Made by a program: the position numbers and the translations under genes. A stretch of DNA of 22,925 bases. Source: a virus. Positions 4,332 through 21,740 of the stretch are shown piece after piece (the stretch's first letter is position 1; each line of letters starts with the position of its first letter). The stretch spans positions 1 to 22,925 of IMG/VR virus record IMGVR_UViG_3300025894_000069; one strand, 5' to 3'. Under the pieces are notes generated by a model. That model did not search any database. It worked only from the letters and a program-made list of their open reading frames with translations, and was not told the DNA's origin.

Positions 4332-4336
4332 TAAAA

Positions 4337-4344
4337 TACTTATA
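4337..4344 (-). promoter_or_regulatory. Late-promoter-like octamer TATAAGTA before the fibre-like gene
   Basis: On the minus strand TATAAGTA differs by one base from the T4 late promoter TATAAATA. It lies 5 bases before the ATG at 4331, in the 49-base gap after the 1295-residue gene. The same spacing recurs at other unit starts in the window. A transcript begun at the usual distance would start at or near the ATG. Confidence 0.5.
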
Positions 4345-4380
4345 CAAAAACCTTAAAGTCTCAATCGTATGTACATTTAA

Positions 4381-7300
4381 TTATGTCTGTGTGTTATATG
4401 CCGGTTGATTCATTGAATTCAATGATTCTGGTACCACAATGTTTTCGAAGGTGAGTAATTCGTCTTGATTGTATCTCTCTTTGACCAATGATCTGGTTCT
4501 CAACACCACAGGAGCAACCATCTTAGGTCGACCAGAACCCAACACCAACATTGTGCATTCATTGTAGTCATTATCAACATATGAAGATGCAGTTATTAAT
4601 GACACATCAGACAATGAGGTTCCGGCGTCGTATGGTCTTAGCAAGAACTTATATGGGTATACATGTTTAACTCCATCTGATGTATGTGCTATAATCACGA
4701 ATTTATACATGATACCAGCATATCTCTCTCCGAAATCCCAATCTATCATACAAGATGATTGATTGTTGATACACTTATCTGGAGAAAAGAGAAAATTGAA
4801 TTCATATTCTAATGTATCTTGACGAGGATCTGCTAGATCATTTCCGTTTGGAATTCTAGATATATCAATTTCAGCGAAATCTGGCAGAGGTTTTCGATCC
4901 ACATGAATAATATCAATATGATCTGAGCTTATATCCGGACGGTGAAATCTAGCTTCAATACGATATACAGGTGATGTGGAATCTGGTATGATATTATTTG
5001 GATCGATTGTCAGCTTGTAGTAAAAGGTAGCGATTGCTTCTGGTACAAATAGTGAGTTAAAATCTCCATGGCGGTCAACATCACTGCTTATACCGGTGGA
5101 TAAATCTAATGGATTAGTCTCTATCAACCGAGAGTTTATATCATTGTAGCTTATCTCACTAGTGAGGTAACTATCATTTAGATATTCATTCAAATTGTAG
5201 TAACTAAATCCACGATCGTCTTGTGACAGTGTCTCTACACCATATATATCTCTCAACGTCTCCGTTTGATCTAAATCTAGTGCATGAGTGTAGTATAGAT
5301 TGTGAGCAAAATTAGTTATATCAGATGAATTAGGCGCCGCGGTGGAGAATCTAGATTGATACACAAACACCCGATCACCATATACATTGTCAAACAATCT
5401 ACCTATGGATGTGATGTAGTATAACTTGAGTTGTTCGTTGTATGAAATTAACCCTTCAGTTGGTGTGAATTTTGAGACATCAACTGGTAGCACATAACCA
5501 GTTGTAGGTAACTTGAGTTTTGAGAATACAAGATCACTCTGGTTGACAGGAATTGTGTAAATATATTTAGGACTGAATATAGGAAGAGGATTGATACTAG
5601 TTACGATAGGAGGAGCATCATATACACCGAGCATTAAAGTGTTCTCCTTCTCACTATAGAAGTGTCGTATATAGACAGACTTGTAGTCTAGTCCTATCAG
5701 TAATGTACGTGTGTTGTCTACAGACACCTTACCAGTTTCATATGAGTACCTAATCTTGACAACATACACAAATTTCGTAGACTTAAGTATCATAATATCG
5801 TTGATAATATCAAAGTCAATTAAGTCATTGAGCATGTCATGTCTTGGATTATACGTCTTGTTATATTCAGTAAATCCTCTGTCATCACTATCAACCATCA
5901 TGTATTCTTCTGGTAGAGAAGATATAACCTCTCCCATGAAGTTTTCATGCGAACCTATATACTCGCTGTTGTTGTTTCTGATGACCAACCTACCAGGGGT
6001 ACTAGATCTAGATTCTTCTCCAGACACAGTTGATGCTGAGTGTGTCTCTTGTGTTGCAGTCGGTACTGTATCGTACAACTCACTATCGAACCGAGCTGTC
6101 TCAACCATATCATAAAAAACACCAAGAGGTACATCGTCACATGTATCTTGAAAATCGCCACAGTCCCACATGTCATCATAAGGTGGATTAAACATAGTAC
6201 CAGATTGTGCAGAAAATGTTGGTGATTCATTAACACCATAATGTGATGCTGTTAGCTCATATATATCAGACTCAACATAGCCAGTAGGTATCTTGATAGT
6301 ATAACCGTCTCGAATATTGCAGTTGTGAATCTTGAGAGATTCTTCTTCATCTTCATCCAGACACGAAGTAGATAGAAAGTAACCACAATTAGTTAGATCT
6401 GTATAATCTGGCGGAGAACTGAATCCATTTATATCTGCATGATTTAATATGTCACCGTCTGCAGATACTTCATCCCATCTGGAACCTAACGGACACACTC
6501 CACCATTACATGTCATTGAAGTCTGTTGAAGTAACTGGAGGTTGTCAGATATATCATCTAATGATATGTTAGAGCCACCATCCACACACTCATCATATAT
6601 GGATATACCCTTGAGTATATCACTGAAGGTGAATCCATCAAACACACGGCATGTCAAGCTATCTTGATACTTGTCTTTATCACACTCTAATATATCAAAA
6701 CCAGATTCATCATATGATATCATGTTCTTGAGCAACGCGTACTCATTTCCATATATATCCACTCGCCATTTATAAACTTGACCAGAATTAGTCAGCTGAC
6801 TTTGTTGTCTGGATTCAATCGGTAGTTCAAGTGTATCTGAAGTCTCAAACACATCGTCATTTGACCATATATCACTCAAGTCTCCCTGCCAAAAGTCGAA
6901 CTTATCATCCTTACGACTCACACCTTGAGTGGAGAATTTATTATACTCATCTGAAGATATATAATTGTAGAACTTCTGATAGTTTGTTTGATCGTTCACA
7001 TCAGATAGAAGACCATCACTTGATAATCTCTTCTGCCAGCTCACAGTCTCATCATAGACTAGAGGAGTGGTTGAGTCTCGTAGAGTATCACCAATAACAG
7101 ATGCATCAGGGTATGTGTATATTGTGTTTGATTCTAGTCTAGTCTTGTCCACTGTGATAGTTGGCGTGAAACTAGTATATGACAACACACCCAATCTTTC
7201 TGGAGTGAAAAATCCTCCCAACTCATGAATAGTTTTAGTATTGGTGTCGTCGTTTGAAACGTAATTCACATGTGGTTTCTGCTTGTTGTATATATTGCTA

Positions 7301-8268
7301 GTCTTGTCATCACTGTTGAACAGCAATCCAGCACTCTCTACAGTAGCATCCTCTCCAGTCTTGATGTAATATGTGTCTGCTCCAGTGGATCTTCGGATCA
7401 AGTTTCTCATTGAGTCTAACTTTAACTCTAGGCTGGTTACATCGTTATTATAGTCAATGAATTCATGAGGTGGTAATAACTCTACTAGTGATGTTTGTTG
7501 AGAGTCAAAATTTATAGAGATATTCGTATTGTTGACTTGAATATTAGATGTTATGTCATATTGACTGACTATGTTTGATATAGCAGATGATGTGTCTATA
7601 AATATATGAGGATCATAGTCGATGGTGTTATATGTTTCAGATCTCTTATAGTTCACAGATTCTGGGTCAATACCACTAGTACCTGTATAACCATCCTCAA
7701 CATCATACAATTCCACCAATTCCACTCGCAGCTCTCTATACATCCTGTCAAAGTCATCAAGTACGTCTTTATACTCTGTTTGAAAGTCTAAATCATCCAG
7801 TAATCGAAGAATGTCATTGTATATGACCTTTGCTACACCTGCAATTGTTGAGTGATGTTGCATCTTGGTGGGTTGATTCTTAGATTCATGACGCTGACCT
7901 CTGATGTAACCTAATATTTCCTTCAATCTTTTGGAGTATAGATTAGCAGCTACATCAGCTTCATGTTTGTTTGTTAGATCTACTGTGTTTAGAAATCTCA
8001 GCTCTTCATCAGTGAATGTATGCTTGAACGTCAGCTGTTTTAAATATGATATGTAACTCTCAGTTGTTGTCGGTGTAGATGCATGTACAGACTTGTTAAC
8101 AGTCCATTCAGACAAGTACTTCATGTACTCTTGATATGTTAAACTTAATGTGGTTGAGTTCTTCATCCAATCGCCAAAGGAATATGGCTTCTCAACATCT
8201 TTCGACATGGAGTTAGATGATGTTGATTGAGGTGATAGTGTAGACTCTGTGTATTTTATATTATTCAT
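4381..8268 (-). CDS. Giant baseplate-associated structural protein with a Cys-rich middle and a PKD-like domain
   Basis: The protein has 1295 residues. The N-terminal about 160 residues are helical: GDWMKNS (32-38), YQEYMKYLSEW (45-55), LRFLNTVDL (90-98), YSKRLKEILGYIRGQRHESK (111-130) and STIAGVAKVIYNDILRLL (140-157). From memory, a similar module opens other long virion proteins of T4-like marine phages. Residues 529-710 hold about ten cysteines, including MTCNGGVCPLG (Cys587) and WDCGDFQDTC. A region of short beta strands follows, then a PKD-like stretch around 1140-1210 with MIDWDFGERY (Trp1177). Its start overlaps the end of the 1287-residue gene by 8 bases, and no Shine-Dalgarno is visible, so coupling is likely. 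It sits where T4 carries gp7/gp8, so a wedge or outer-baseplate role is plausible, but I see no direct similarity to gp7 or gp8. Confidence 0.7.
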   Translation of the reverse strand: MNNIKYTESTLSPQSTSSNSMSKDVEKPYSFGDWMKNSTTLSLTYQEYMKYLSEWTVNKSVHASTPTTTESYISYLKQLTFKHTFTDEELRFLNTVDLTNKHEADVAANLYSKRLKEILGYIRGQRHESKNQPTKMQHHSTIAGVAKVIYNDILRLLDDLDFQTEYKDVLDDFDRMYRELRVELVELYDVEDGYTGTSGIDPESVNYKRSETYNTIDYDPHIFIDTSSAISNIVSQYDITSNIQVNNTNISINFDSQQTSLVELLPPHEFIDYNNDVTSLELKLDSMRNLIRRSTGADTYYIKTGEDATVESAGLLFNSDDKTSNIYNKQKPHVNYVSNDDTNTKTIHELGGFFTPERLGVLSYTSFTPTITVDKTRLESNTIYTYPDASVIGDTLRDSTTPLVYDETVSWQKRLSSDGLLSDVNDQTNYQKFYNYISSDEYNKFSTQGVSRKDDKFDFWQGDLSDIWSNDDVFETSDTLELPIESRQQSQLTNSGQVYKWRVDIYGNEYALLKNMISYDESGFDILECDKDKYQDSLTCRVFDGFTFSDILKGISIYDECVDGGSNISLDDISDNLQLLQQTSMTCNGGVCPLGSRWDEVSADGDILNHADINGFSSPPDYTDLTNCGYFLSTSCLDEDEEESLKIHNCNIRDGYTIKIPTGYVESDIYELTASHYGVNESPTFSAQSGTMFNPPYDDMWDCGDFQDTCDDVPLGVFYDMVETARFDSELYDTVPTATQETHSASTVSGEESRSSTPGRLVIRNNNSEYIGSHENFMGEVISSLPEEYMMVDSDDRGFTEYNKTYNPRHDMLNDLIDFDIINDIMILKSTKFVYVVKIRYSYETGKVSVDNTRTLLIGLDYKSVYIRHFYSEKENTLMLGVYDAPPIVTSINPLPIFSPKYIYTIPVNQSDLVFSKLKLPTTGYVLPVDVSKFTPTEGLISYNEQLKLYYITSIGRLFDNVYGDRVFVYQSRFSTAAPNSSDITNFAHNLYYTHALDLDQTETLRDIYGVETLSQDDRGFSYYNLNEYLNDSYLTSEISYNDINSRLIETNPLDLSTGISSDVDRHGDFNSLFVPEAIATFYYKLTIDPNNIIPDSTSPVYRIEARFHRPDISSDHIDIIHVDRKPLPDFAEIDISRIPNGNDLADPRQDTLEYEFNFLFSPDKCINNQSSCMIDWDFGERYAGIMYKFVIIAHTSDGVKHVYPYKFLLRPYDAGTSLSDVSLITASSYVDNDYNECTMLVLGSGRPKMVAPVVLRTRSLVKERYNQDELLTFENIVVPESLNSMNQPAYNTQT

Positions 8269-11200
8269 CTATGTTTAGTCCGTCTCTTATGGTTCTCTCG
8301 ATAGTCAGGTTAATGGATGATGAAGGTGAGGTTTGCCAGTCTGAAAATGATATGTCTTCTGATACGGTGGTCATGTTGTTGTCCCAATCAATCATACCCT
8401 CTAGTTGATCATACATAGATTCATCATAATCACTTTGAACTTTGATGAATTCACTGTCGGTAGATTGATAATCTCGAGTGAAGTTGGGTTTGAACTCATA
8501 AAAATCATAATACTTTGTGAATAACTCTCCAGTGGGAAATGATAACGACCATGCCCAATCAGCATGATATGATAGCAATGGATATTCTGATATAGCAGCA
8601 TCCATGTTGGACTTGTCATTAGGATCTGGTATTGTCATAGGCACAACAACTCTATATGTGTCGTTGAATAGCTCTTTAGTTACTATAGGTACACCAGCTC
8701 GCACTACATATTCAGCTGGATCAATTAACGCGCCTAGATTTCGACCTATATTGAATGTGCTAGTGTATCCTATGTTGTTGAGTGACTCTTCAGTGTTGTC
8801 CCTGGAACCTCTAAGCTTTGCGTGTGACATAGATAGTAGATCTAATTTTCTGCGCAATGTGGGAGGTGGTTCTTCTTTGAATGATTTCATGCTGGCATTA
8901 GTTGTAGATGTTAGGCTATATATAGGTGATATGTTACACGTGTCTATATCGATATTGTTTGGTGAGAAGTTAGCTATCTTCTCATAGAATGTCTTGCCCA
9001 TTTCTGTAGGATCACCATCAACATCGCCAAGAATAGGTGACATCACTTTGGATTGAAATGATGAAGCTTCGCTCAATACTGATTGATATGACATCGACTC
9101 AATTACTGAAGACATGTCTATATTTTCGTTTATTTTTTGAATTTCTTCTGAAGATTGAATGCTGAATATATTTGAAGCACCAGAAATTCGTCGAATCGTG
9201 TTGCTGAACTTAAAGTACTTCTGAATCCATCTTACACCAGTCCAGTCTCCAAATGCTTGCACTACTTCATATGAATCTGGTTCATACCTATCACTACCAC
9301 TGGGTGTCTGAATTGGCAACTCACTATAGCCACCTGGATATATGTTCAGACTAGTATCATTTGATGTTGATATGTACAGCTTCTTATCTACATTATTTAT
9401 AACCACTAACCTATCATCAGTATCACACGACAATCCCTCAATTGCATGACGACGACCTTGTCGGTTAATGATGTCTATAGGGTCATCCCAAGCAGGACCT
9501 ATGGTTCTAGAGTGTATTGGTGTGTATATGGGTATGTCATCAAGTGTACCGGTTTTGAACTGTACCAACGTGTTTCCAGAGTGTACAACCCACAGATGAT
9601 CGTACATATCTAAACACAATTGTGATGGCTTGTCAAATACTACAGTTTCATTAGTCAATGGATCAACATACTCAAATATTTGATTCAAGATTTCTCCAGA
9701 TTCACTCACGTGTATTAAGCTACCCTTGTTGTCGAACGTTGAAGCCTTGCTGTTGGTGATCCATGCATCATTATGACCATCTACTATGATGTCATGAATG
9801 TGAACTGGGTAATTGAATGTTATCGGATCTATGATACGAGTACCATCCTTATCATACTTCACAATTATGAATGTATCTGGTTCATAATTGTTTGCAATAT
9901 GAGACCCAGCGTACATTAATGACAACCATACATTATCAAGTCTGTCAGTTTCGATCTTGGATGGATATAATCTAGAGGGGTCGAATCCGTCTAGAGTGAT
10001 CGGTATTACCGCTTGCGGTTTCGAGTGCAGACCATTTTCTGTTATTTTAACAATCCTAGGTGTGGTTGAATCGGCAAGAGCCACCCAAATGTTGTTCTGA
10101 CTATCAATTGATATACTAGCGATACCAGACGATTTGTCACTCTCCGGTAAAAGTACAAACCCGTAAGGTGACATAGGGTCCTTGGGAGATATTACAGTTG
10201 TAATCTCATCGTTGTCTAGATTGTGACCTTGAACTAGGATGGTGTCTATATGATTACCGAATCTATCAAGTTTTATCAATAGATCACGGTCAGTATCAGC
10301 AATCCACGCAGCAGAGTCACTATCAACACCCACGCAGAAGTAATGACTCACAGGATCATCTAAGTCGTTCTCAGAGTACATCACTAAAACTGGCTGCTCT
10401 AATGTGGTTAATCTTGTGTCAAAATCATTATGTGTTATGGTGTGATCTACATTGAATGTATACTCATGATCCATATAACCGGGACGGAAGAGATAAATGT
10501 TATCGGTGTGCATGTTAGCCACATAATAACTCTCCACCTGTTTGTTCATGTATATCTTATCTTTGATCAAACATGTACCACTCAATTGATAAGAACCAGT
10601 CTCCGATATACCAGGTATTGTCATACTACAACTACCAGGTGTGTCTAGTGGTAGTTCGATCTTGTCGAATGTGGTTGGATATATTACAGATTCATTGGAA
10701 TTATGCTTGATTAGCTTTAAATCTACGCTGTATAGTTGATCACCTCCAGGACATATTGGTTCATTTGGATCAGATTTGAGTATACTCAATCCTGTGTCAT
10801 CTATCAACGACATGTTGAATGAAATTAATGAGTCTTTTAGTTTAACATCATTGATATTCATCGATTGAATCCCGGTGCTTGTAAATGAAATTTGTTGAGG
10901 TGGATTGTATACAATACCCACCGGAAGTACATCGATTGATTTTTGTTCTACATTTGGTTCTACATCCTTGATTAATACTGATTGATCATAAAACGTATCT
11001 GATTGATCATTGTTGATGTTTAGAGATGCAAATAGAAACACCGGGGATGTATCTCCACGATCGCCTGCTTGTTGTGATAAATACATAGTAGCAGTGTCAT
11101 CCATGTAACATACTCTAGATATAGATTCATTTCCTATAAAGTACCAATCACTTGAACTCAGCGCTGGAAATTCATACCCCACTACATCTGGCGAATTAGG

Positions 11201-12124
11201 TAAATAAGCGGCTCGTATTTGAGTGTTATATGTGTTGAAGAATTGAGAGGCTTGGGTAGTGTGCAGTACGTTAAATTTGTCGGATGATGATGATAGGTTA
11301 CCGTCTCTCATGTCCATTTGAAACATCGATGTGTATATGTATACAATATCAAATCGACCAGTTGGTACTCCAGACTCAATCACCTCTATAAATGTATGTG
11401 TCAACATTATTTGGTTACCTGGTGTGTGAATCTTGTTTATTGGTGTGATACTGTCCGGTGCAGCTGTAAACCTCCATGTCTGTTCCAGATGAGCGTACTT
11501 GTTGTTCATGTACTCATCTGGTTCGATGTAATCTGATGAAGATCCAGAGGCATATACTGAAAGAGTGTGATTATTTGTATCGTTACTCAATCTCCATGGT
11601 GTTGTTGAGTATATGGTATAGTAATCACTTACTCTACCAGCGGGCAACAAGTCTAAGCGGCGGTTTTGATTTCCAGGAGATATCCATTTTACATCAGTCT
11701 CAACGAAATCAGATACGATTATCTTCTGAAAGTATTTACTAGGTCGAGGTCTACCATCATAATCACGAGCAGTTGCACTAACTACAAATTCACCAGGCTT
11801 GTTGAATGTATGATGAACTATCAATCCATTGTCAGACGAACCATCCCCAAAATCCCACCGGACACTCTCGTTGGTCAGATATATAGATGCAGGTACTGTT
11901 CCATTATCGAATCCAGATTCATCCGGGTGGATCTGATCTGATATATCAAATCTTAATATCGTCTGATCAGATGCATATACGTATATAACACTCTCACCGG
12001 TTTCTGATTCTTTTCTATGAACCGGTTTGTACTGCGATCCTAATAAATTGTTACTATTGTCAACATAATATATATCATACCCTATAAATAGCTCTGTGAA
12101 GCTTTCTGCAAAAGGATTGGCCAT
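8261..12124 (-). CDS. Giant baseplate structural protein with PKD domain and beta-propeller
   Basis: The protein has 1287 residues. A PKD domain lies at about 55-140, marked by VRWDFGDGSSDNG (Trp90) and a later GEFVVSATARDYDG. At about 595-920 is a beta-propeller of the NHL/virginiamycin-B-lyase kind, with blade motifs repeating at regular spacing: AAWIADTDRD, NIWVALAD, NVWLSLMY, DAWITNSK and HLWVVHSG. The C-terminal 120 residues hold a Trp- and Tyr-rich stretch (WAWSLSFP, YYDFYEFKP) after VVRAGVPIVTKELFNDTYR, a pattern I associate with long virion proteins of T4-like marine phages. It follows gp6 after 3 bases, the slot of the gp7 wedge protein in T4 (1032 residues), which suggests a wedge or outer-baseplate role. 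It is most likely structural; the propeller need not be enzymatic. No Shine-Dalgarno is visible at the start. Confidence 0.75.
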   Translation of the reverse strand: MANPFAESFTELFIGYDIYYVDNSNNLLGSQYKPVHRKESETGESVIYVYASDQTILRFDISDQIHPDESGFDNGTVPASIYLTNESVRWDFGDGSSDNGLIVHHTFNKPGEFVVSATARDYDGRPRPSKYFQKIIVSDFVETDVKWISPGNQNRRLDLLPAGRVSDYYTIYSTTPWRLSNDTNNHTLSVYASGSSSDYIEPDEYMNNKYAHLEQTWRFTAAPDSITPINKIHTPGNQIMLTHTFIEVIESGVPTGRFDIVYIYTSMFQMDMRDGNLSSSSDKFNVLHTTQASQFFNTYNTQIRAAYLPNSPDVVGYEFPALSSSDWYFIGNESISRVCYMDDTATMYLSQQAGDRGDTSPVFLFASLNINNDQSDTFYDQSVLIKDVEPNVEQKSIDVLPVGIVYNPPQQISFTSTGIQSMNINDVKLKDSLISFNMSLIDDTGLSILKSDPNEPICPGGDQLYSVDLKLIKHNSNESVIYPTTFDKIELPLDTPGSCSMTIPGISETGSYQLSGTCLIKDKIYMNKQVESYYVANMHTDNIYLFRPGYMDHEYTFNVDHTITHNDFDTRLTTLEQPVLVMYSENDLDDPVSHYFCVGVDSDSAAWIADTDRDLLIKLDRFGNHIDTILVQGHNLDNDEITTVISPKDPMSPYGFVLLPESDKSSGIASISIDSQNNIWVALADSTTPRIVKITENGLHSKPQAVIPITLDGFDPSRLYPSKIETDRLDNVWLSLMYAGSHIANNYEPDTFIIVKYDKDGTRIIDPITFNYPVHIHDIIVDGHNDAWITNSKASTFDNKGSLIHVSESGEILNQIFEYVDPLTNETVVFDKPSQLCLDMYDHLWVVHSGNTLVQFKTGTLDDIPIYTPIHSRTIGPAWDDPIDIINRQGRRHAIEGLSCDTDDRLVVINNVDKKLYISTSNDTSLNIYPGGYSELPIQTPSGSDRYEPDSYEVVQAFGDWTGVRWIQKYFKFSNTIRRISGASNIFSIQSSEEIQKINENIDMSSVIESMSYQSVLSEASSFQSKVMSPILGDVDGDPTEMGKTFYEKIANFSPNNIDIDTCNISPIYSLTSTTNASMKSFKEEPPPTLRRKLDLLSMSHAKLRGSRDNTEESLNNIGYTSTFNIGRNLGALIDPAEYVVRAGVPIVTKELFNDTYRVVVPMTIPDPNDKSNMDAAISEYPLLSYHADWAWSLSFPTGELFTKYYDFYEFKPNFTRDYQSTDSEFIKVQSDYDESMYDQLEGMIDWDNNMTTVSEDISFSDWQTSPSSSINLTIERTIRDGLNIDE

Positions 12125-12127
12125 GTG

Positions 12128-13927
12128 TTATGCGCGTGTCACGCGGATTTTAGACAATATGGTCGTGTCATTGAAGTAGTATGGAAATTTATAGTAAGGT
12201 AGTTGAACGTTTTGATTGTATATGTTTATATCTTGCTCACTATACACTGGATTCCATACCATGAATGACAGCCCGTTGACAGATTCACCGGTGGATGAGT
12301 TAACTGTGCTGATGGATTGAACACCATCAATACTCAGTATGTCTGATTCTATTTGATTTACATCGACTAGTTGACCTAGTGTTGAGTTCTCCAGTCTAAA
12401 GTAATCAGCTATTATGCTGTTAATAGATCTAGATATAAAATCATCTGATGTTGCTGTGCTGGTTGTCTTCAACACGCTAATATAACATTGGTCAGGTACA
12501 TTAACATCCAACACACCACCAGATACCGCCAAATCGAATGCCATGTACACAGGATCTGCAAATGTTACATTTAGTCCTATGGATTTTCTAGGCTCCAAGT
12601 CATTCTTGATTGCTTCTTTCTGTGAGCTAGCGACGAAGTTGTTCTGTATACTCACTGAGGTCTTTGTTGACACTCTAGGGACCACATACAAGTATACATT
12701 ATTAAAATTAGTAGAGTTTGAAAATTTAGATTGATTAAACAGAGTACGAGACTCTAAAGTAGGGTTTGATATTCCGATATCCTCATGAAGATATTTTATA
12801 TGACCGTCAAGATATGACTTGTTGTTGACTGAGATAACATCATTAATAATGTTTCCAAAAAATCGCTTCACATGTGTAGTGAAGTCATTAGAAGTTATCA
12901 ATCTGTCCTGACTCTCAAAGTATATCGGTGCTCGGCGGCGGATTTCCTCAACACTCTCTGGCTGTCTCGGAATTGTAGAACCGGATGTGTTTTGAAATGT
13001 TATATTCTCTATAGTTTGAAAGTTTATTAACTTGTCATCTGACGTGTATATTGAATCCTTGATGATGTTGAACTGCGGAGTTGTGTATAGTGTCAACTTC
13101 TTGTCATTTATAGAGGTTGCTGGTATGATTCCATCGTCACCTGCAGACTTCAAGTAATATATATACACAATATCTCCGGATTCTAAAGATCTACCATTTA
13201 TACCATCACCAAACCGGAGCTCATATCGATAGTTCTCATTCAAACGCTTCTCGTAACTCAAACTACCAGGTGATTCAGTGTACATCGAGTCAACCTCCTT
13301 GTATTCAGATAGGCCTGTTGCTGATTTGACATAAACTCTTACTGAGAAATGATCTACCGAGATTGATTGTGCATCAATAGCCATGACCAACGTCTCAGAG
13401 ACATCACCACTTGCTATATATCTGGGATATTCAACAACCTCTCCTTGATGTAGGTTGAATAAACCCACAGCATCAGTGAGATTCATCTCCGCAGCTGTGG
13501 GTTTGGTGAATGTTATGTCATTGTTGAGTGTGTATGAGAATCCATTTACGTCGACCTTGGTGTATCTTGGTAATGTGTATGTGCCAATTGGCAGGCTAGC
13601 TGTCACATTCATTGCCATGCTCACCACACTGGTTTGATATCCAGTGGGTTTGTAGTTCAATAGCTTGACTATACGATTCATGTTCTCATACAGTTGAGCA
13701 TCTGAAAACATAGTCTCTGATGCAGTTCGATTCAAGTAGAACATCAGTGTGTGATAACTATAAGCTACTACATCTATCAAGGATGATAAGTTACTACCCT
13801 CAAACACCTGGTCGGTGAATATGTCCTGTTTCTTGAGACGTTCGATTATCAAACTCTTCATTGTTGTCGCATCAAATGCGGCATATCCAGAAGGTGGAAT
13901 GGTGAAATCTGAGAATTTACTGGTCAT
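12128..13927 (-). CDS. 6: Baseplate wedge protein gp6 (baseplate J-like)
   Basis: This 599-residue protein matches T4 gp6 (660 residues), the wedge subunit whose dimers form the continuous inner ring that holds the baseplate together and rearranges on tail contraction. Residues 41-96 carry the characteristic block VFEGSNLSSLIDVVAY, FYLNRTASETMFSDAQLYEN and NRIVKLLNYKPTG. Residues 238-262 carry RFGDGINGRSLESGD followed by IVYIYYL, typical of baseplate J-like wedge proteins. The start ATG overlaps the stop of the gp25 gene (ATGA), so the two wedge proteins are probably translated in a coupled way. It ends 3 bases before the PKD/propeller protein. The identification is firm from pattern; the length is within the family range. 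Confidence 0.93.
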   Translation of the reverse strand: MTSKFSDFTIPPSGYAAFDATTMKSLIIERLKKQDIFTDQVFEGSNLSSLIDVVAYSYHTLMFYLNRTASETMFSDAQLYENMNRIVKLLNYKPTGYQTSVVSMAMNVTASLPIGTYTLPRYTKVDVNGFSYTLNNDITFTKPTAAEMNLTDAVGLFNLHQGEVVEYPRYIASGDVSETLVMAIDAQSISVDHFSVRVYVKSATGLSEYKEVDSMYTESPGSLSYEKRLNENYRYELRFGDGINGRSLESGDIVYIYYLKSAGDDGIIPATSINDKKLTLYTTPQFNIIKDSIYTSDDKLINFQTIENITFQNTSGSTIPRQPESVEEIRRRAPIYFESQDRLITSNDFTTHVKRFFGNIINDVISVNNKSYLDGHIKYLHEDIGISNPTLESRTLFNQSKFSNSTNFNNVYLYVVPRVSTKTSVSIQNNFVASSQKEAIKNDLEPRKSIGLNVTFADPVYMAFDLAVSGGVLDVNVPDQCYISVLKTTSTATSDDFISRSINSIIADYFRLENSTLGQLVDVNQIESDILSIDGVQSISTVNSSTGESVNGLSFMVWNPVYSEQDINIYNQNVQLPYYKFPYYFNDTTILSKIRVTRA

Positions 13928-14400
13928 TGAGTTAGTTTGTATCCGTTACTTGTTAATATACCTGTCATCACTGTCTTCTTATTATTTAAGGACGGTATGC
14001 TCAAATTGATAGTAATAATATACTCATGAGCATCTCTATTCATTATCACTTGTATCTTATCTATCGTGACTCTAGTCTCAAATGTCTCAATCGCGAGGCG
14101 AGTAGACTCTCCAATGTTCTCTGCAGTGTCCTTAGTCATTGGATTGAACAGATACCTAGACAAGTCTGCACCAAACTCTGGATTCAGTAGTTTTTCACCA
14201 GGAGATGTGTTGAATATGTTGCTTATCGAGTTTTTGATCGCAGATACGTCTAATGACTCAAGTATATCTACTGGTTGTGACTCTCTGTATAATCCAGAAT
14301 CGGGTATCTTCTCACTAATCTTGATGTCAAGATGAATGTCTTTGTATGTGTGATCTGATACTTGAGTACGTCTTAACGATTGTAAATTAATAGATGACAT
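13924..14400 (-). CDS. 25: Baseplate wedge protein gp25-like
   Basis: This 158-residue protein belongs to the gp25/GpW family (T4 gp25 is 132 residues), the wedge component that starts sheath assembly on the baseplate. The signature is TYKDIHLDIK near the N-terminus, SAIKNSISNIFNTSPGEKLL (53-72), NPEFGADLSRYLFNP (73-87) and a C-terminal strand block EYIITINLSIPSLN (126-139) ending GILTSNGY. The EKLLNPEFG core is the family hallmark. It is the first gene of the gp25-gp6-giant-protein unit and is preceded by CTAAATA, 5 bases before the ATG. Its end overlaps the gp6 start by four bases. It is slightly longer than T4 gp25, mainly at the N-terminus. Confidence 0.93.
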   Translation of the reverse strand: MSSINLQSLRRTQVSDHTYKDIHLDIKISEKIPDSGLYRESQPVDILESLDVSAIKNSISNIFNTSPGEKLLNPEFGADLSRYLFNPMTKDTAENIGESTRLAIETFETRVTIDKIQVIMNRDAHEYIITINLSIPSLNNKKTVMTGILTSNGYKLTQ

Positions 14401-14405
14401 GTAAA

Positions 14406-14412
14406 TATTTAG
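14406..14412 (-). promoter_or_regulatory. Late-promoter-like CTAAATA before gp25
   Basis: On the minus strand the sequence reads CCTAAATATTTAC directly before the gp25 ATG, with 5 bases between CTAAATA and the start. It shares the 55-base divergent gap 14401-14455 with a TATAAATA facing the other way. No Shine-Dalgarno is present. Confidence 0.55.
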
Positions 14413-14438
14413 GTAAACAGTTTATTTCAAGGTAGAAA

Positions 14439-14446
14439 TATAAATA
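14439..14446 (+). promoter_or_regulatory. T4-type late promoter TATAAATA before the 184-residue gene
   Basis: The octamer TATAAATA is an exact match to the T4 late promoter consensus. It lies 9 bases before the ATG at 14456. An AAGG further upstream (14429-14432) is too far to act as a ribosome binding site for this start. Confidence 0.6.
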
Positions 14447-14455
14447 ATATTAATA

Positions 14456-15010
14456 ATGAACAAGTATAATATTCTCATAGAAACAGCTCTCTCTAGATTC
14501 AACACAGGTGGTTTCCTTACAGGAGACGCGGTTCGTGTCAAGAAAGGCGCAGCGAAATCTCAATGGGCCTTAAAACAGCCGGATAATTTAATAGAGAAGC
14601 TCAAAGAGTTTGTAGATACTGATAAGAACATAAGAATCAGTGCAGTCAAAGCATCCAGACCAGCAATGGGAGATGTACAACCATACAGTGCTATAGATGG
14701 CTACTTTTGTGATGTGGTCATTGAGTCTGCACCTGGTTTATATGAAACTTTCATGACCATTCCATCTGATCTACTAGAACATACTGATCAAGATATAAAT
14801 CTTCCGGATATTCCAGATAGCCTTCGAAGAGATGACAAGGTTACTGACAAACCAGAACTATTGAAGAATGAAGACAGAGTTGATGTAAATTCACCAGTGG
14901 TTGGAGAGACTCCTTTGTCAAGCTTACCAGATTCAAACTATGATAAACAGATCAACCCAAACACCAGTGATAACTTCAATACTCAGCAGTATATCACCGG
15001 GATGAAGTGA
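14456..15010 (+). CDS. Conserved hypothetical phage protein, 184 residues
   Basis: No function is recognised. The N-terminal 110 residues look like one compact domain: MNKYNILIETALSRFNTGGF, LTGDAVRVKK (21-30), a helix LIEKLKEFVDT (45-55), strand NIRISAVKASRPAMGDVQ (58-75) and APGLYETFMTIPSDLLE (92-108). From memory this layout (FxxGGFLTGDxV, then IRxSxVK, then PGLYxxxxTxPxxLLE) resembles a family of uncharacterised proteins in marine T4-like phages; that is not checked. The C-terminal about 75 residues are acidic, Asp/Asn/Pro-rich and probably disordered. It is one of only two plus-strand genes in the window. It diverges from gp25 across a gap with late-type motifs on both strands, and its last 17 bases overlap the end of the clamp-loader gene tail to tail. 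The late-type promoter hints at a virion or assembly role. Confidence 0.8.
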   Translation: MNKYNILIETALSRFNTGGFLTGDAVRVKKGAAKSQWALKQPDNLIEKLKEFVDTDKNIRISAVKASRPAMGDVQPYSAIDGYFCDVVIESAPGLYETFMTIPSDLLEHTDQDINLPDIPDSLRRDDKVTDKPELLKNEDRVDVNSPVVGETPLSSLPDSNYDKQINPNTSDNFNTQQYITGMK

Positions 15011-15917
15011 TTGACTTGGAGATTGCTAGCATACAAGTGTAGAAATTGATCTCTTGATCTGCGACAAATGCTGTTCTGTAGATATACTCACCTACAATCA
15101 ACATGCACTCACTTTTACACTGATCGTTTACGATCTGCGTATCAATAGCGTTGAATATTGATCGCAACAACGATATATAATCACCTCCAAACACATGCTC
15201 ACTCTCAATCACGTTTCTTCGAATTTTCATAACCTTGCCTGATATCAACAACTTGAGTATGTTACCAGCATACGTTTCATATGTCTGTTGATCTACTATA
15301 TTCAACACACCACCAGGTGATTGCTTCTGCAACTCATTTGTAGCTTTTCTTAAGTCTGGATAATGAACTCGGATTCGATCTAGATCATCTGATTGGTACT
15401 CAACTCCTTCTTGATCGAGGATATACTTACATCTAGCTAGATAATCTGTTATATTAGGTGTCAAGTCTATACTCTGACAACGGCTCTGCACTGCAGGAAT
15501 GACTCTATGATGAAAATTAGCAGTTAACACAAATCTAACATACTTTGTGTGTTCTTCCATGATGTTCCTCAATGCTCTTTGAGCATCCATCGTCAAACCA
15601 TCAACTTCATCTAGTATTATCACCTTGATGTTACCATCTATACTCTTCGTGACACTGAAGTTAGTTATCTTTGTACGAACTGTGTCTATTCCATTCTCAT
15701 CACTAGCGTTAATGTATATATACTGACACTCCAGTATGTCTTTTACGATTATCTTCGCCAGACTGGTCTTTCCTATACCAGGTTTACCACATAACATCAT
15801 GTTAGGTATGGTGGATGAAGACACACACTCATCCAATAGTGTACGATTAGTGGACGTTAGCACCATTTCACCTAATGTACCAGGTCGGTACTTCTCTACC
15901 CATAAGTTCTCAAACAT
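14994..15917 (-). CDS. 44: Sliding-clamp loader ATPase subunit (T4 gp44 / RFC small subunit type)
   Basis: This 307-residue AAA+ ATPase (T4 gp44 is 319) loads the sliding clamp on DNA for the phage polymerase. In T4 it works with gp62, and the loaded gp45 clamp also activates late transcription. Motifs in order: VEKYRP (7-12), Walker A GKPGIGKTS (44-52), Walker B VIILDEVDGL (99-108), QRALRNIME box (113-121), sensor 1 LTANF (131-135), the SRC arginine-finger motif (145-147) and sensor-2-region YPDLRKATNELQ. All catalytic residues look intact. Its start overlaps the dUTPase stop by one base (TAATG) with GAAGAG just upstream as a modest ribosome binding site, so the two are coupled. No gp62-like gene lies next to it; downstream it meets the plus-strand 184-residue gene in a 17-base tail-to-tail overlap. 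Confidence 0.93.
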   Translation of the reverse strand: MFENLWVEKYRPGTLGEMVLTSTNRTLLDECVSSSTIPNMMLCGKPGIGKTSLAKIIVKDILECQYIYINASDENGIDTVRTKITNFSVTKSIDGNIKVIILDEVDGLTMDAQRALRNIMEEHTKYVRFVLTANFHHRVIPAVQSRCQSIDLTPNITDYLARCKYILDQEGVEYQSDDLDRIRVHYPDLRKATNELQKQSPGGVLNIVDQQTYETYAGNILKLLISGKVMKIRRNVIESEHVFGGDYISLLRSIFNAIDTQIVNDQCKSECMLIVGEYIYRTAFVADQEINFYTCMLAISKSITSSR

Positions 15918-16468
15918 TACTCTTCAAACAGCGTCTCGAAACCCTTGTCTCGAGTTGATGTATATTGTGTCACTGAACCATAACATGAGGATTGAGATGA
16001 TTGCGCTGAATCTGATGAACCAAACCCTTTATCACCGCGAGAAGTGTTAGTTACTTCATTTGATATCGAGAAATCACACTGTATCAATGGATATATAACT
16101 AGTTGAGCGATTTTATCACCTTTCTTGACTTGATAATCCGGATCCGATCGAACATTACTAAAATTATACAGCTTAACAGCTAGATCACCTCTATACCCAT
16201 TGTCTATCACTCCTAGATGTGGTTGGATGTTATGCTTGAAACCTAAACCACTTCTAGGTTCGATTCTTATCCAATAACCAGGTGATATATCAGCTAATGT
16301 CAGACCCACTGACACGATACTACTTGAACCAGCAGGAATTATCACATCATCAACAGCAGTCAGGTCGTATCCAGTGTCTCCGGTGGCTAGTTCAGTGTTA
16401 TTTGCACAAGGTAACACTGCATCTGGGTGAGTTTTCTTGAGTTTTATGTGTACATTCATGTTATTCAT
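15917..16468 (-). CDS. dut: Trimeric dUTPase (deoxyuridine triphosphatase)
   Basis: This 183-residue protein hydrolyses dUTP to dUMP and pyrophosphate, keeping uracil out of phage DNA and feeding thymidylate synthesis. All five motifs of homotrimeric dUTPases are present: I DTGYDLTA (31-38), II PRSGLG (71-76), III GVIDNGYRGD (86-95) with the catalytic Asp at 89, IV GDKIAQLVI (117-125) and V RGDKGFGSSD (144-153). Motif V departs from the usual RGxGGFGSTG: Lys replaces a glycine and Asp the last glycine, but Arg and Phe are kept. A Ser/Gln-rich linker then leads to TSTRDKGFETL (170-180), an echo of motif V. It is the middle gene of a 49-residue ORF-dUTPase-clamp loader operon. The start overlaps the upstream small gene by 8 bases; Met4 is an alternative start. 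It differs in family from T4 gp56. Confidence 0.95.
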   Translation of the reverse strand: MNNMNVHIKLKKTHPDAVLPCANNTELATGDTGYDLTAVDDVIIPAGSSSIVSVGLTLADISPGYWIRIEPRSGLGFKHNIQPHLGVIDNGYRGDLAVKLYNFSNVRSDPDYQVKKGDKIAQLVIYPLIQCDFSISNEVTNTSRGDKGFGSSDSAQSSQSSCYGSVTQYTSTRDKGFETLFEE

Positions 16469-16610
16469 TCAATAATGTTTGATTGTCGTTGAGTGGTCGT
16501 TTGTTCACCTCCAGATTCATCGAATTCTTCTCTAACCATCTAAGAAGTTCACCTAACTTATCGGGATGTACCGTAAATTGCCCATGGCCAAGTATGTTTA
16601 CTATTATCAT
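16461..16610 (-). CDS. Small conserved-looking hypothetical protein, 49 residues
   Basis: The frame runs from ATG at 16610 to TAA at 16461. The product starts MIIVNILGHGQFTVHPDKLG, continues with an amphipathic helix ELLRWLEKNSMNLEV and ends TLLNE. No function is recognised. It fills the otherwise empty space between the dUTPase start and the divergent plus-strand gene, begins exactly downstream of a good sigma-70-like promoter, and its stop overlaps the dUTPase start by 8 bases. All three points argue that it is a real gene, translationally coupled to dUTPase. The strand-helix pattern (short hydrophobic strand, GxGxFxV, then a helix LxxLLxWLxxN) reminds me of tiny proteins in T4-like marine phages, from memory only. 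Alternatively the region is a 5' leader of the dUTPase mRNA. Confidence 0.6.
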   Translation of the reverse strand: MIIVNILGHGQFTVHPDKLGELLRWLEKNSMNLEVNKRPLNDNQTLLNE

Positions 16611-16616
16611 ACCACT

Positions 16617-16644
16617 ATTATAACATATATTATTGTGTTTTCAA
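16617..16644 (-). promoter_or_regulatory. Sigma-70-like promoter of the dUTPase/clamp-loader operon
   Basis: On the minus strand TTGAAA (16639-16644) and TATAAT (16617-16622) are separated by 16 bases, close to the bacterial consensus TTGACA-17-TATAAT. The expected start, about 7 bases after the -10 box, falls at or beside the ATG at 16610, implying a very short or absent leader. Its class differs from the late-type motifs before the structural genes, suggesting early expression by host RNA polymerase. Confidence 0.55.
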
Positions 16645-16653
16645 CTAGAGGTA

Positions 16654-16660
16654 CTAAATA
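16654..16660 (+). promoter_or_regulatory. Late-promoter-like CTAAATA before the small-terminase-like gene
   Basis: The sequence ACTAAATATTGAT directly precedes the ATG at 16666, with 5 bases between CTAAATA and the start. This is the same arrangement as before gp25 and the tail-tube-cap-like gene. An AGAGGT at 16647-16652 lies 13 bases before the ATG, a long spacing for a ribosome binding site, and would lie upstream of the transcript if the motif is a promoter. Confidence 0.5.
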
Positions 16661-16665
16661 TTGAT

Positions 16666-17157
16666 ATGAATGTGGATGATTTGAGTGACAATCTAGAGAA
16701 TGATGTGAAGAGTTTGGTGGATCAATTGAAAGAAGATCAAAAGATTGTTAAAGAGCATGTCAAGAGTGAAGAATTTAAGTTGGATAAGGATAATTTAGAA
16801 GAATTTGTATTGAGTCGTACTGGTATGTTGATCAATTCTAGTATGGAGATGGTGGATACAGTCAAGCAATATGTAGTAGCAGCTCCGAATTCGGAAGAAG
16901 TTGAATCTTTATCGAGTTTGTTGAGAGCCACTACCAGTAGTTTAGACACTTTGAGCAAGATATTGTTACAAAACATGAAGACAGACACGACAGTTCGGGT
17001 GAAAAACATGGATATTGAGTCAAAAAAACAGCTTGTGGATCAAGAACATCACAATAAAGTGTTGTTGTCACGAGAAGATATAATAGACGGATTGATAAAC
17101 AACGCAGAAGTGATTGAAATCAATGACAGTAATACAGTTTATGAGGATAAAGATTGA
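16666..17157 (+). CDS. Probable terminase small subunit (T4 gp16-like helical protein)
   Basis: The product has 163 residues from the ATG at 16666; a TTG at 16633 in the same frame would add 11 residues but lies upstream of the promoter-like motif. It is almost entirely helical. An acidic N-terminal helix (1-40) precedes a helical hairpin: FVLSRTGMLINSSMEMVDTV (47-66), KQYVVAAPNSEEVESLSSLL (67-86) and SSLDTLSKILLQ (91-102). A tail with KNMDIESKKQ (113-122) follows. Length, the central hairpin and the tail agree with the small terminase of T4-like phages (T4 gp16 is 164 residues), which forms rings that regulate the packaging motor. The identification rests on pattern recall. The large subunit is not in the window. 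The gene runs against all its neighbours except the 184-residue gene and overlaps the end of the 391-residue gene by 19 bases, tail to tail. Confidence 0.55.
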   Translation: MNVDDLSDNLENDVKSLVDQLKEDQKIVKEHVKSEEFKLDKDNLEEFVLSRTGMLINSSMEMVDTVKQYVVAAPNSEEVESLSSLLRATTSSLDTLSKILLQNMKTDTTVRVKNMDIESKKQLVDQEHHNKVLLSREDIIDGLINNAEVIEINDSNTVYEDKD

Positions 17158-18314: not shown

Positions 18315-18317
18315 GCT

Positions 18318-19967
18318 CTATGGGTTTGAGAAAAAATCCTCAATAGTACCAGTGGTGTTGAAGTCTCCGGCTGGTATCTCTTGTGGAGGTGGTTGGTTGA
18401 ACATGTTGAAGCCTTCGAAGGATTCAGGCTCATCATCTATTGTATTATGAACTGGTTTGAAATTGTATGGTTTGACTCCAATCAATTGATTTGTGTATGT
18501 GTTGTTGGTGTATCTATGAATTACACTGGTCACCAAGTATTGACCTATAACTTTATCATGATACGGTGAGACTGCGCTGTTTGTGTCTGTGGTTTCTGTT
18601 CCAATTGACACAAACCTTCCAACTCCACGAGATGGATGACCTGGTACGTTGAACTCAACAGCATTACTCAACAACACGCTGTTGTAAACTGCTGAATTGA
18701 TTCCTTTGTTTAGATAACTAGAACCTGATTGACTTGTAGAGAAATGATGGCGTATGTTGGTGTTAAATTTTCTGTTTGTATTGACATCCATGCTGATCGA
18801 AGTTGGTAGCTGATTGTCATGAGGTGTGTTGCCAACCATCGATGTGAGTTCATTGTATATACTGTCTATACTATTCTCTGATTGTTTTATATGAAATGAT
18901 TTGGTACTGCTGTTGTACATATGAACAGGTGAGGTTACTATATTCATCAGGTTATCAGAGCTGTTTATCTCGTGATACTCAATACTGGATATATAGCTCT
19001 TCTCTCCTAGATTATAATTCTGATACACACCATCACCCATCAGTGGAACACGAATTGGTCCGGATTTGGCTAATCCAGGGGGATCTGGATAACTCAACAA
19101 CTTGAAAGCTTCAGTCTGAAGAGAACCAGCCAACCATTTACCAGGAGATTTGTCATCATCAACGGATTCATAATGAGCAGCGTATGCGAACATTAGTGGC
19201 AGTGTTACCAATCTCCATTGATTCACCGGTCTGTCGTAATACAATATCGATTTACCTTTGTTAGTGGATTCAGAACTTACATGTGTGTCTAGTAAGTAGT
19301 TCAAATCATCAATGCAATTGAAGTTTGCTGGAGATGTGTACATCGTTTCTGAATGGCCAATGTCCCATGATTCAGAGAATGGTGTACTGTCACCCAAGCT
19401 CAATCTCATGAGAGATTTTATAGCGTTACCAGTATGAACACGTCTATTTAAATCTGCGCCATGTCTCATCTCCGCATCTGTATAAGTTGTTATCGATGTG
19501 GTGCTCCATGGTATGTTTGTGTGCAACATTCTCTGATATCTCTCGTCTCGTATCATCAATCTCTTGATTTTAGTGTTTTGATGAGCTTCTTGTATATCAT
19601 ATATGTTAAATGTACCATAATATGTATGAAATGAGTCACCTTCTCCAGCTGGTGTTTGTAGTGTTATGTACATTATGTCTGTTCCATCGTTTCTGAACAC
19701 ATAAGATGCGGATGTCTTTCCTTTGGTGAATTCCTTTTCATCCAGATTGAGCAGATCATGCACACGACCGCCAGCTGGTGGAGCTCGTTCGATGAAGTCA
19801 TGCTCGTTCTTTATATCAACATAACCTCTTGACCACCATCTGGTCAAGCACTCCTCAATTTGCATATCATGAACAGCTTCGGTGTTTAGAGTTATATAAT
19901 ATCCATCGGAATTGATCATCACGATAGATATGTCATGCATATCGTTCTCCGGAGATTGATGTCTCAT
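18318..19967 (-). CDS. Probable baseplate hub protein (gp27/gpD-like fold)
   Basis: This 549-residue protein begins with a pattern typical of phage hub proteins: strands ISIVMINSDGYYITL, then DMQIEECLTRWWSRGYVDIK and FHTYYGTFNIYDIQEAHQNT followed by KRLMIRDERYQRML. Near residue 440 comes EFNVPGHPSRGVGRFVSIGT, and at about 485-518 GQYLVTSVIHRYTNNTYTNQ then LIGVKPYNF. This is the VPGxPxRxVG / GxYLVTxVxHxF arrangement of hub proteins related to T4 gp27 and phage P2 gpD, which form the trimeric ring joining the tail tube to the central spike. It is longer than T4 gp27 (391 residues). Its ATG overlaps the gp53 stop (ATGA) and it has the best Shine-Dalgarno in the window, AAAGGA 3 bases before the ATG. 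Fold call is moderate; the exact T4 equivalence is inferred. Confidence 0.65.
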   Translation of the reverse strand: MRHQSPENDMHDISIVMINSDGYYITLNTEAVHDMQIEECLTRWWSRGYVDIKNEHDFIERAPPAGGRVHDLLNLDEKEFTKGKTSASYVFRNDGTDIMYITLQTPAGEGDSFHTYYGTFNIYDIQEAHQNTKIKRLMIRDERYQRMLHTNIPWSTTSITTYTDAEMRHGADLNRRVHTGNAIKSLMRLSLGDSTPFSESWDIGHSETMYTSPANFNCIDDLNYLLDTHVSSESTNKGKSILYYDRPVNQWRLVTLPLMFAYAAHYESVDDDKSPGKWLAGSLQTEAFKLLSYPDPPGLAKSGPIRVPLMGDGVYQNYNLGEKSYISSIEYHEINSSDNLMNIVTSPVHMYNSSTKSFHIKQSENSIDSIYNELTSMVGNTPHDNQLPTSISMDVNTNRKFNTNIRHHFSTSQSGSSYLNKGINSAVYNSVLLSNAVEFNVPGHPSRGVGRFVSIGTETTDTNSAVSPYHDKVIGQYLVTSVIHRYTNNTYTNQLIGVKPYNFKPVHNTIDDEPESFEGFNMFNQPPPQEIPAGDFNTTGTIEDFFSNP

Positions 19968-20314
19968 GAATCCTTTAACATCTTGACGATATCACTGGCT
20001 CTATCTGGCTGGATTATTCTCAACACACGACCAACTTCTAAGGGCTTGACAGTGTCGTTGATATTATTAGCGATACATATCAACCACCACATGTGTATAT
20101 TACCATACACACGGTAGCTTAATGTTGTGAGACTGATGGATCTGTCCAGCTTGAGTAGAAAATATACTGATGGATCTAAATCTTCTGGAATGTTCACAGT
20201 TCTCAGCAAATTGTAGTGATAAACACCATCGTTGTATACATTGAACAGATTCTCTAGCTGGTTCTCTGATATATCGTCTAGTTCAGATATGTTGTTGTGT
20301 TTAGATGGTATCAT
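19964..20314 (-). CDS. 53: Baseplate wedge protein gp53-like (LysM-like)
   Basis: This 116-residue protein matches the gp53 family, a wedge protein that clamps gp6-gp7-gp25 assemblies together in T4. The core is PSVYFLLKLDRSISLTTLSY (48-67), then RVYGNIHMWWLICIANNIND (68-87) and EVGRVLRIIQPDRASDIVKM (93-112). The YG-xxxx-WWLIxxxN block and the following G-x-V-L-x-I are the family signature and resemble a LysM fold. It is shorter than T4 gp53 (196 residues) and corresponds to the core domain. It starts 15 bases after the tail-tube-cap-like gene without a clear Shine-Dalgarno, and its stop overlaps the hub gene start by four bases, so the hub is probably coupled to it. Confidence 0.85.
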   Translation of the reverse strand: MIPSKHNNISELDDISENQLENLFNVYNDGVYHYNLLRTVNIPEDLDPSVYFLLKLDRSISLTTLSYRVYGNIHMWWLICIANNINDTVKPLEVGRVLRIIQPDRASDIVKMLKDS

Positions 20315-20329
20315 TGTCTAATTAGCTTG

Positions 20330-21712
20330 TTATCCTTTAGGCCTTCGCGGACCGATAAATTTCAAATTCTCAACCTCTTGGTCTACTTCTGCGACGATTC
20401 CGCCAGAAACAGCTTGACCAGTTCTGGTGTCTCCATCCGTTGGATCAACAACCTCAATGAGTTCACCCATGCGGAGCATTTCCATCATGTAATTCCTTGA
20501 TTCAGGGATCAATTCACTCATGGTGATGCTGATCTGATATGCATCAGGTACTAGCACTTGTATAGTGTTACGATCTTTCAATCCTCGTTCGTCTAGTTTT
20601 CCTACACTCTCATCAAGAGACAATTCCATTAATCTCCGAGAACCAACCATGGTGATCTCTACTCGAGACATGTAAGCATATCTACTGTACCACACACCTG
20701 GTATGTTGGCTTCATATATATGAGGTGGAGCAATAGCAGTTCTGGTCAATCTGTTTGGAGTGTTTTGATACATCAACATGAACACAAGCTCCCAATTGCG
20801 TTGAGTGTCTTCCATGCTCACGGTATTCAATAATGGGAAACTGAATTCATAACTCTTAGTGTCACTTGGAAAAGCTGGGTATTTTGGATGCTCAACATAT
20901 GTACCACTTGTGCCTGTGTTGAAAGCGCTGACCACACTTGATGCAAATTCGCTTATATTTCCAGCAGACTTCTGAAATGGTAAGTTAGTATGACCAGATG
21001 TATCTGAGAATCCAGGAGCAGCATATTTGTATGTGTCACTGAAATACGGGAATTTATATTTGAAACCCGTGGGAGCGGTGGCATACAATCTATGATATGG
21101 TTTCTGATAAGATGTGGTGTACTTGAGACTCTCATCTGTGTTCTGAGACTTAAGAGTTTTCAGTGCTTTCTTGACTCTTGAACCAACCACATTGCTTATG
21201 GCTTGTGAATACGCACTAACTGTACCCACTGCACCTCCAACGGCTCCTGTAGCCCAATCAACTGCCTTAACGGTAGTGTCAACTCCGTCGTTCACTAACT
21301 CTGGATTCAAGTCAGTCACAGTGGCGATGTTGTACAGTATTGAATTCAACGCGACGTTTTGCAATATAGTGTGTTCCATCAACTTTATCACTGGTATGTC
21401 GTTGTTATCATTGATCATTGCAGTGCGAGGACTATGCGACCATTTGAAATTCTCAATCACGTTGATAGTGCTAAATTGTTTAGGTCCTCTAGAAGCCAAA
21501 GCTTCGGATTCTGAAGAATACGTTCCACCTCCTTGACCAGTCCACATGCTTTCTTTGGGAGAAGTCTGAGATGCAAATGAATCCTCATAGATGTAGGGTA
21601 CGATCTGAGGTGCTGGTCCAGCTCCAGCGGTGGAATCCAGACCCACTGGTTTGACCGATTCAGGAGGCAACCCGGAAATAAATTTAAATAAGTGTTGTTG
21701 CCCAGGTTCCAT
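20330..21712 (-). CDS. Probable baseplate tail-tube cap protein (gp48/gp54-like)
   Basis: This 460-residue protein ends in a pattern I associate with the tube-fold proteins that cap the hub and start tail-tube growth (T4 gp48 and gp54): SFPLLNTVSMEDTQRNWELV, LMYQNTPNRLTRTAIAPPHI, PGVWYSRYAYMSRVEITMVG and finally VLVPDAYQISITMSELIPES before RNYMMEML. The N-terminal 80 residues are Gly/Pro/Ser-rich and probably flexible. Residues 150-180 are Gly/Ala/Val-rich (ATGAVGGAVGTVSAYSQAIS) and flank a Lys-rich helix; they are not a convincing membrane segment. It lies just upstream of gp53 and the hub, as expected for a tube-cap protein. CTAAATA stands 6 bases before its ATG, so it may start a transcription unit. 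The alternative is another tube-fold baseplate protein. Confidence 0.6.
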   Translation of the reverse strand: MEPGQQHLFKFISGLPPESVKPVGLDSTAGAGPAPQIVPYIYEDSFASQTSPKESMWTGQGGGTYSSESEALASRGPKQFSTINVIENFKWSHSPRTAMINDNNDIPVIKLMEHTILQNVALNSILYNIATVTDLNPELVNDGVDTTVKAVDWATGAVGGAVGTVSAYSQAISNVVGSRVKKALKTLKSQNTDESLKYTTSYQKPYHRLYATAPTGFKYKFPYFSDTYKYAAPGFSDTSGHTNLPFQKSAGNISEFASSVVSAFNTGTSGTYVEHPKYPAFPSDTKSYEFSFPLLNTVSMEDTQRNWELVFMLMYQNTPNRLTRTAIAPPHIYEANIPGVWYSRYAYMSRVEITMVGSRRLMELSLDESVGKLDERGLKDRNTIQVLVPDAYQISITMSELIPESRNYMMEMLRMGELIEVVDPTDGDTRTGQAVSGGIVAEVDQEVENLKFIGPRRPKG

Positions 21713-21718
21713 ATATAA

Positions 21719-21725
21719 TATTTAG
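21719..21725 (-). promoter_or_regulatory. Late-promoter-like CTAAATA before the tube-cap-like gene
   Basis: On the minus strand ACACTAAATATTATAT directly precedes the ATG at 21712, with 6 bases between CTAAATA and the start. It fills the 28-base gap after the disordered protein's gene and matches the motif before gp25 and the small-terminase-like gene. No Shine-Dalgarno is present. Confidence 0.55.
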
Positions 21726-21740
21726 TGTGTTGATCAGTTT

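Follow-up and report, generated by a model that had tools for sequence, protein, structure and literature searches.

In the textbook case of T4 late transcription, the promoter and the ribosome-binding site are distinct elements, and in well-studied bacteria leaderless initiation is usually a side route. The viral DNA analyzed here raises the question of whether the two signals can be fused, with a late promoter placed so close to the start codon that the message would begin at the protein start. The window, which is the whole of the linear IMG/VR record IMGVR_UViG_3300025894_000069 (22,925 bases), is a 22.9-kb piece of an uncultured T4-superfamily phage. It carries a baseplate module of that superfamily (gp25, gp6-like and gp53-like genes and large virion-region proteins), along with genes for a dUTPase and a gp44-type clamp loader. 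Relatives were gathered via a search with the clamp loader (gp44) and then with the terminase of one relative, and their gene starts were called by a simple script. In a gp44 tree, the window and eight related viral contigs form one clade (98/98 support), with S-ShM2, Mosig and T4 outside it. No close cultured relative was found by gp17, gp44, gp55 or nrdA, all matches being below 60% identity.

Across this clade, the sequences hold a conserved motif at a sharply defined distance from start codons, restricted to one class of genes, lacking Shine-Dalgarno (SD) words and accompanied in relatives by gp55; from this promoter geometry we infer leaderlessness. On such sequence evidence, it is very likely that T4-type late promoters are fused to start codons clade-wide, with early sigma70 counterparts, and that leaderless or near-leaderless mRNAs are made in both phases. 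Most messages of the clade should then begin exactly at the protein start, unlike those of T4.

Late boxes and unit heads in the window

The original prediction placed late-promoter-like motifs just before five starts of the window, and all five are present where it put them. TATAAGTA (4337-4344, minus strand) lies 5 nt before the ATG at 4331 of a 167-aa tail-fibre-like gene (3828-4331, minus strand), which matches phrog_5004, of unknown function, at E 9e-8 and has weak tail-fibre matches. CTAAATA (14406-14412, minus strand) lies 5 nt before the ATG at 14400 of the gp25 baseplate wedge gene (13924-14400, minus strand; Pfam PF04965, E 1e-14), and the motif also heads the gp25 orthologues of G002, G004, G008, G009 and G012, at 6-8 nt. 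Divergent from the gp25 promoter, TATAAATA (14439-14446, plus strand) is located 9 nt before the ATG at 14456 of a conserved 184-aa gene of unknown function (14456-15010, plus strand), whose orthologues in G002, G004, G006 and G007 (34-38% identity) have ATAAATA 3-10 nt upstream. A second CTAAATA (16654-16660, plus strand) occurs 5 nt before the ATG at 16666 of a conserved 163-aa gene, also of unknown function (16666-17157, plus strand); among its orthologues in relatives, the box is at 5 nt in G002_005 and at 6 nt in G006_022. The last CTAAATA (21719-21725, minus strand) stands 6 nt before the ATG at 21712 of a conserved 460-aa baseplate-region gene (20330-21712, minus strand), with gp53-like and tail genes after it; no close cultured relative of this protein was found. 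All five genes are unit heads, each behind a non-coding gap of at least 28 nt.

In T4, one helical turn separates the late box from +1 downstream of it, and the first T of the box is at -13 (PMC2988020). The 8-mer thus extends to -6, and with a spacer of 5 nt the +1 position would coincide with the A of the ATG. With the box position taken over from T4 numbering, the predicted +1 of the 4337-4344 box is the A of its ATG, and the predicted leaders at the five boxes are 0, 0 and 0 nt, 1 nt (21719-21725) and ~4 nt (14439-14446). As had been claimed, no SD sequence lies between motif and ATG at any of the five sites. The AGAGGT that precedes the 16654 motif would lie outside the predicted transcript.

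The list of motif-headed starts was correct in all five entries but missed a sixth unit head at the same distance, at 16610 on the minus strand. This head is of sigma70 type, with TATAAT (16617-16622, minus strand) 6 nt before the ATG and, read from the sequence, TTGAAA (16639-16644, minus strand) as the -35 hexamer across a 16-nt spacer, a TTGAAA-16-TATAAT-6-ATG arrangement at leaderless distance. The early-type unit behind it consists of a conserved 49-aa small gene (16461-16610, minus strand; 43-44% identity in G004 and G006), the dUTPase gene (15917-16468, minus strand; PF00692, E 4e-24) and the gp44-like clamp loader gene (14994-15917, minus strand) that was used for clade placement of the window. 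Orthologues of the small gene (G004_040 and G006_021) have TATAAT 6-7 nt upstream.

Three virion-region proteins of ~1,270-1,300 aa are also encoded on the minus strand of the window (3-3821, 4381-8268 and 8261-12124). The first has no Pfam match and the second no PHROG match, and their homologues in relatives mostly show 22-34% identity. An Rfam scan of the window detected no RNA element.

Spacing and identity of the late boxes

Within the window, TAA[AG]TA occurs 5-9 nt upstream of 5 of the 15 starts; dinucleotide shuffles give 0.2 on average, and none of 2000 reaches 5. Of 195 starts in the window and four relatives, 40 have a TAAATA ending 4-8 nt before the ATG, compared with 1.98 +/- 1.22 after shuffling. 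Genome-wide enrichment at 5-6 nt, for which the original prediction proposed a scan, is strong in the relatives: among 586 starts in 37 non-redundant loci, TAAATA is found at 5 nt in 57 cases and at 6 nt in 47, over a background of ~1 per nt. When no gene caller is used and NTAAATA is simply followed by ATG and an ORF of at least 60 aa, the counts are 114 at 5 nt and 87 at 6 nt, with a background of ~5; GTG gives a small peak (11 at 5 nt), and TTG and CTG starts give none. With the same gene caller and code, T4 and S-ShM2 have 0 boxes at 4-8 nt and peaks at ~21-29 nt. A sharp peak at 5-6 nt in relatives that is absent from T4 and S-ShM2 is what a promoter fused to the start codon would produce, and it supports the proposal of such a fusion.

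Two further possibilities were considered and rejected. Gene compaction as the cause of the short distance is ruled out, as the box is at 5-8 nt before 45% of starts behind 40-80-nt gaps versus 1.8% of overlapping starts. RM378, phiM9 and RHph_N34 were candidate sharers of the pattern, which is absent from them.

The identification of the motifs as T4-type late promoters is borne out by their sequence, the AT-rich step after the box, their restriction to virion genes and the presence of gp55 in relatives. In 203 aligned sites, the variable base of the TAA[AG]TA core is A in 86% and G in 14%, the first positions of the 8-mer are relaxed, and the five positions directly after the box are ~82-90% A+T. 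The motif is typical of virion genes and almost never occurs at replication genes: in relatives it precedes some or most copies of gp13, gp15, gp18-21, gp25, gp26-like and phoH, and it is absent from gp41, gp43, gp44, gp46, gp47, gp61, uvsW, uvsX and gp55. Homologues of gp55 are present in seven relatives, G004 and six other large ones (E 2e-35 to 4.7e-25 across the seven; 5.6e-30 in G004), adjoining gp47 and uvsW in most annotated ones; this gene is known from relatives only, and the window fragment does not reach its region. The gp45 sliding clamp is encoded in G004 at 77365-77889 (E 1.7e-10). A search for the co-activator gp33, a small and divergent protein, gave no match in five incomplete contigs, and a hydrophobic-acidic, T4-like clamp-binding tail is not evident, nor clearly conserved, at the gp55 C-termini of five clade members. 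Clamp activation of the boxes is thus only putative. Additionally, -35-like words number 24 at late heads against 8.6 expected, and 47 at early heads against 3.3; given the mild excess at late heads, some late boxes may double as sigma70 -10 elements.

In the mechanism proposed here, a phage gp55 sigma factor with host RNA polymerase would read the late boxes, transcription would start at the A of the start codon or 1-4 nt upstream of it, and ribosomes would engage the 5' AUG without an SD sequence. Early genes would have the same geometry through host-sigma70-type promoters.

Early promoters and leaders

Fusion was originally put forward as a late-gene design; late genes do use it, but early sigma70 promoters appear to be fused to the ATG too. 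Among 326 starts without a late box and with a gap of at least 20 nt, 17 have TATAAT 6 nt before the ATG, a peak over a background of 0.38, and 11, most of them from G013, have TTGAC[AT] 28 nt before it, a second peak over a background of 0.2. These peaks imply a 16-17-nt spacer, i.e. TTGACA-16/17-TATAAT with the ATG at +1. In G013, ~25 related, near-identical cassettes of the form CTTGACA...CAACCC...GCTATATTATCTC-ATG are present (L144-L153), and in one or two other relatives each, TATAAT precedes gp43, gp61, td and gp46 by 6-8 nt. Full sigma70-type promoters at 5-9 nt are found in G004, G008, G009 and G013, with a few in Mosig, and are absent from T4 and S-ShM2. G013 is a 195,888-base relative that carries 29 tRNA genes, most of them in a cluster at 22-30 kb.

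SD words precede 1.1% of late-headed and 0% of early-headed starts, versus ~5% in the control. They are found at 10-14% of overlapping and closely spaced operon-internal starts, and at 54% of starts in T4. The leaderless design predicted for late genes fits most heads, with their boxes at 5-6 nt, but gp23 and some gp18 genes keep leaders. Short A-rich leaders without SD are found at gp23 and, in three relatives, at gp18, and gp32 has an A-rich leader without SD as well; the leaders of gp23 and some gp18 genes are ~14 nt or longer. Leadered non-SD initiation therefore probably also works in these cells. The exception at the gp18 sheath gene is a recurrent one, with a leader of ~11-14 nt; in G008, G009 and G012, and at other loci, TAAATAATTAAAGAAAGTTATAACT-ATG forms place the box 16-19 nt before the ATG.

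It may be that the whole lytic programme, early by host sigma70 and late by gp55, runs on leaderless mRNAs, although we hold this wider claim only tentatively and lean slightly against it. If it were so, either host ribosomes would favour leaderless messages or the phage would adapt ribosomes to them.

Alternative readings, comparable systems and hosts

A different balance between transcripts is imaginable, albeit unlikely: leaderless transcripts would exist, most protein would come from longer read-through mRNAs, and leaderless initiation would be minor. Tight gene packing makes read-through likely, and gp23, gp18 and gp32, which are probably highly expressed, keep leaders. However, the loss of SD words from promoter-headed genes means that read-through mRNAs would also be without a normal ribosome-binding site, and two gaps of the window are divergent, so that genes headed there have no co-directional gene just upstream.

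It is improbable that the AT-rich motif is no promoter and acts instead in translation initiation, replacing the SD sequence inside a longer leader. The genome-wide lack of SD would suit such an element, and a ribosome-contact motif would also show a fixed spacing of 5-6 nt to the ATG. Yet the word is the T4 late-promoter consensus, which in T4 and cyanophage stands 13-29 nt before starts; it is missing from overlapping and replication genes, which need translation too; it shifts to 16-19 nt at gp18; and early genes have a different word in the corresponding position, a sigma70 -10 element correctly spaced from a -35. We find it a little more improbable again that the motifs are promoters whose genes truly start at a downstream in-frame ATG, and hence have a leader. 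The start calls are computational, but several orthologous proteins, e.g. gp25, align within the first few residues of these ATGs, and the peak is seen with ATG, weakly with GTG and with neither TTG nor CTG. Chance in an AT-rich genome is virtually out of the question, for although motif counts alone are near expectation in the window (58 TATAAATA-like matches with at most one mismatch versus 44; 4 CTAAATA versus 3.7), it is refuted by the shuffle tests (window; 195 starts) and the 37-locus distance peak, the positional enrichment being ~20-fold over shuffles and repeated in independent relatives.

Promoters fused to start codons, as proposed for this clade, can be set beside several known systems. 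The gp55-dependent late promoters of T4 (TATAAATA; PMC2988020) have the box, the AT-rich step, the virion genes and a gp55 homologue (in relatives) in common with it. In T4, however, the box is mostly 13-28 nt before the ATG with SD leaders, whereas in the clade it is at 5-6 nt without SD, gp33 was not found, the gp55 clamp-binding tail is not evident and the first box position is relaxed. The T4-like cyanophage S-ShM2 shares the NATAAATA box and gp55 with the clade, but its box peaks at 22-29 nt. In the SAR11 (Pelagibacter) phage Mosig, ATAAATA precedes the ATG of six genes by exactly 5 nt, as in the clade (MT647606; 24964, 60328, 60990, 92996, 94129 and 106670), but the majority of its late boxes lie at greater distances upstream and an SD word is present at 44% of its starts; Mosig is a possible intermediate state.

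Bacterial TA-led leaderless genes, a host sigma70 habit commonest in Actinobacteria and Deinococcus-Thermus, have a -10 element ~10-12 bp before the start codon and no SD (Zheng 2011, PMC3160421). Late and early heads of the clade similarly have a promoter element ~10-12 bp before the start codon and lack SD, and the clade adds a phage late sigma. Leaderless phage mRNAs are known from lambda and predicted for Cluster O mycobacteriophages (PMC4351075), but these are isolated leaderless promoters, whereas in the clade the arrangement is the rule for most promoter-headed genes, early and late. A search of open-access papers, with incomplete coverage, found no description of promoter-start fusion in T4-like phages.

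Searching 84,980 species genomes with gp17 for a host returned no relative. TAnnTTTG boxes, which would be expected with a Bacteroidota host, occur only 9 times in the 326 early-type upstream regions and show no peak, and such a host was rejected. If the proposed fusion is real, promoter and start signal would have collapsed into one short unit across a widespread uncultured T4-like clade, and a large lytic phage would rely chiefly on leaderless initiation, which would point to hosts with unusual initiation. As a practical use, the motif could help to locate start codons and late genes where viral contigs of the clade lack annotation.

Some other features of the relatives were observed. G004 encodes a phage tmRNA (L020:5-397, minus strand; Rfam RF00023, 145.6 bits) whose tag, GKNKVSELFAKVADMFQATPKQELALA, is unusual and 27 residues long. 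It also has genes for a QueC-like protein (L024:7748-8458, minus strand), a GTP cyclohydrolase (L025:3135-3776, minus strand) and QueD-like and QueE-like proteins (L025:4498-4941 and L025:4910-5722), together a 7-deazaguanine pathway that perhaps serves DNA modification. A trypsin-like protease of G004 (L020:1022-1960, minus strand) is 81% identical to its G006 homologue, while most other shared genes are at ~28-70%, which suggests recent transfer or strong constraint.
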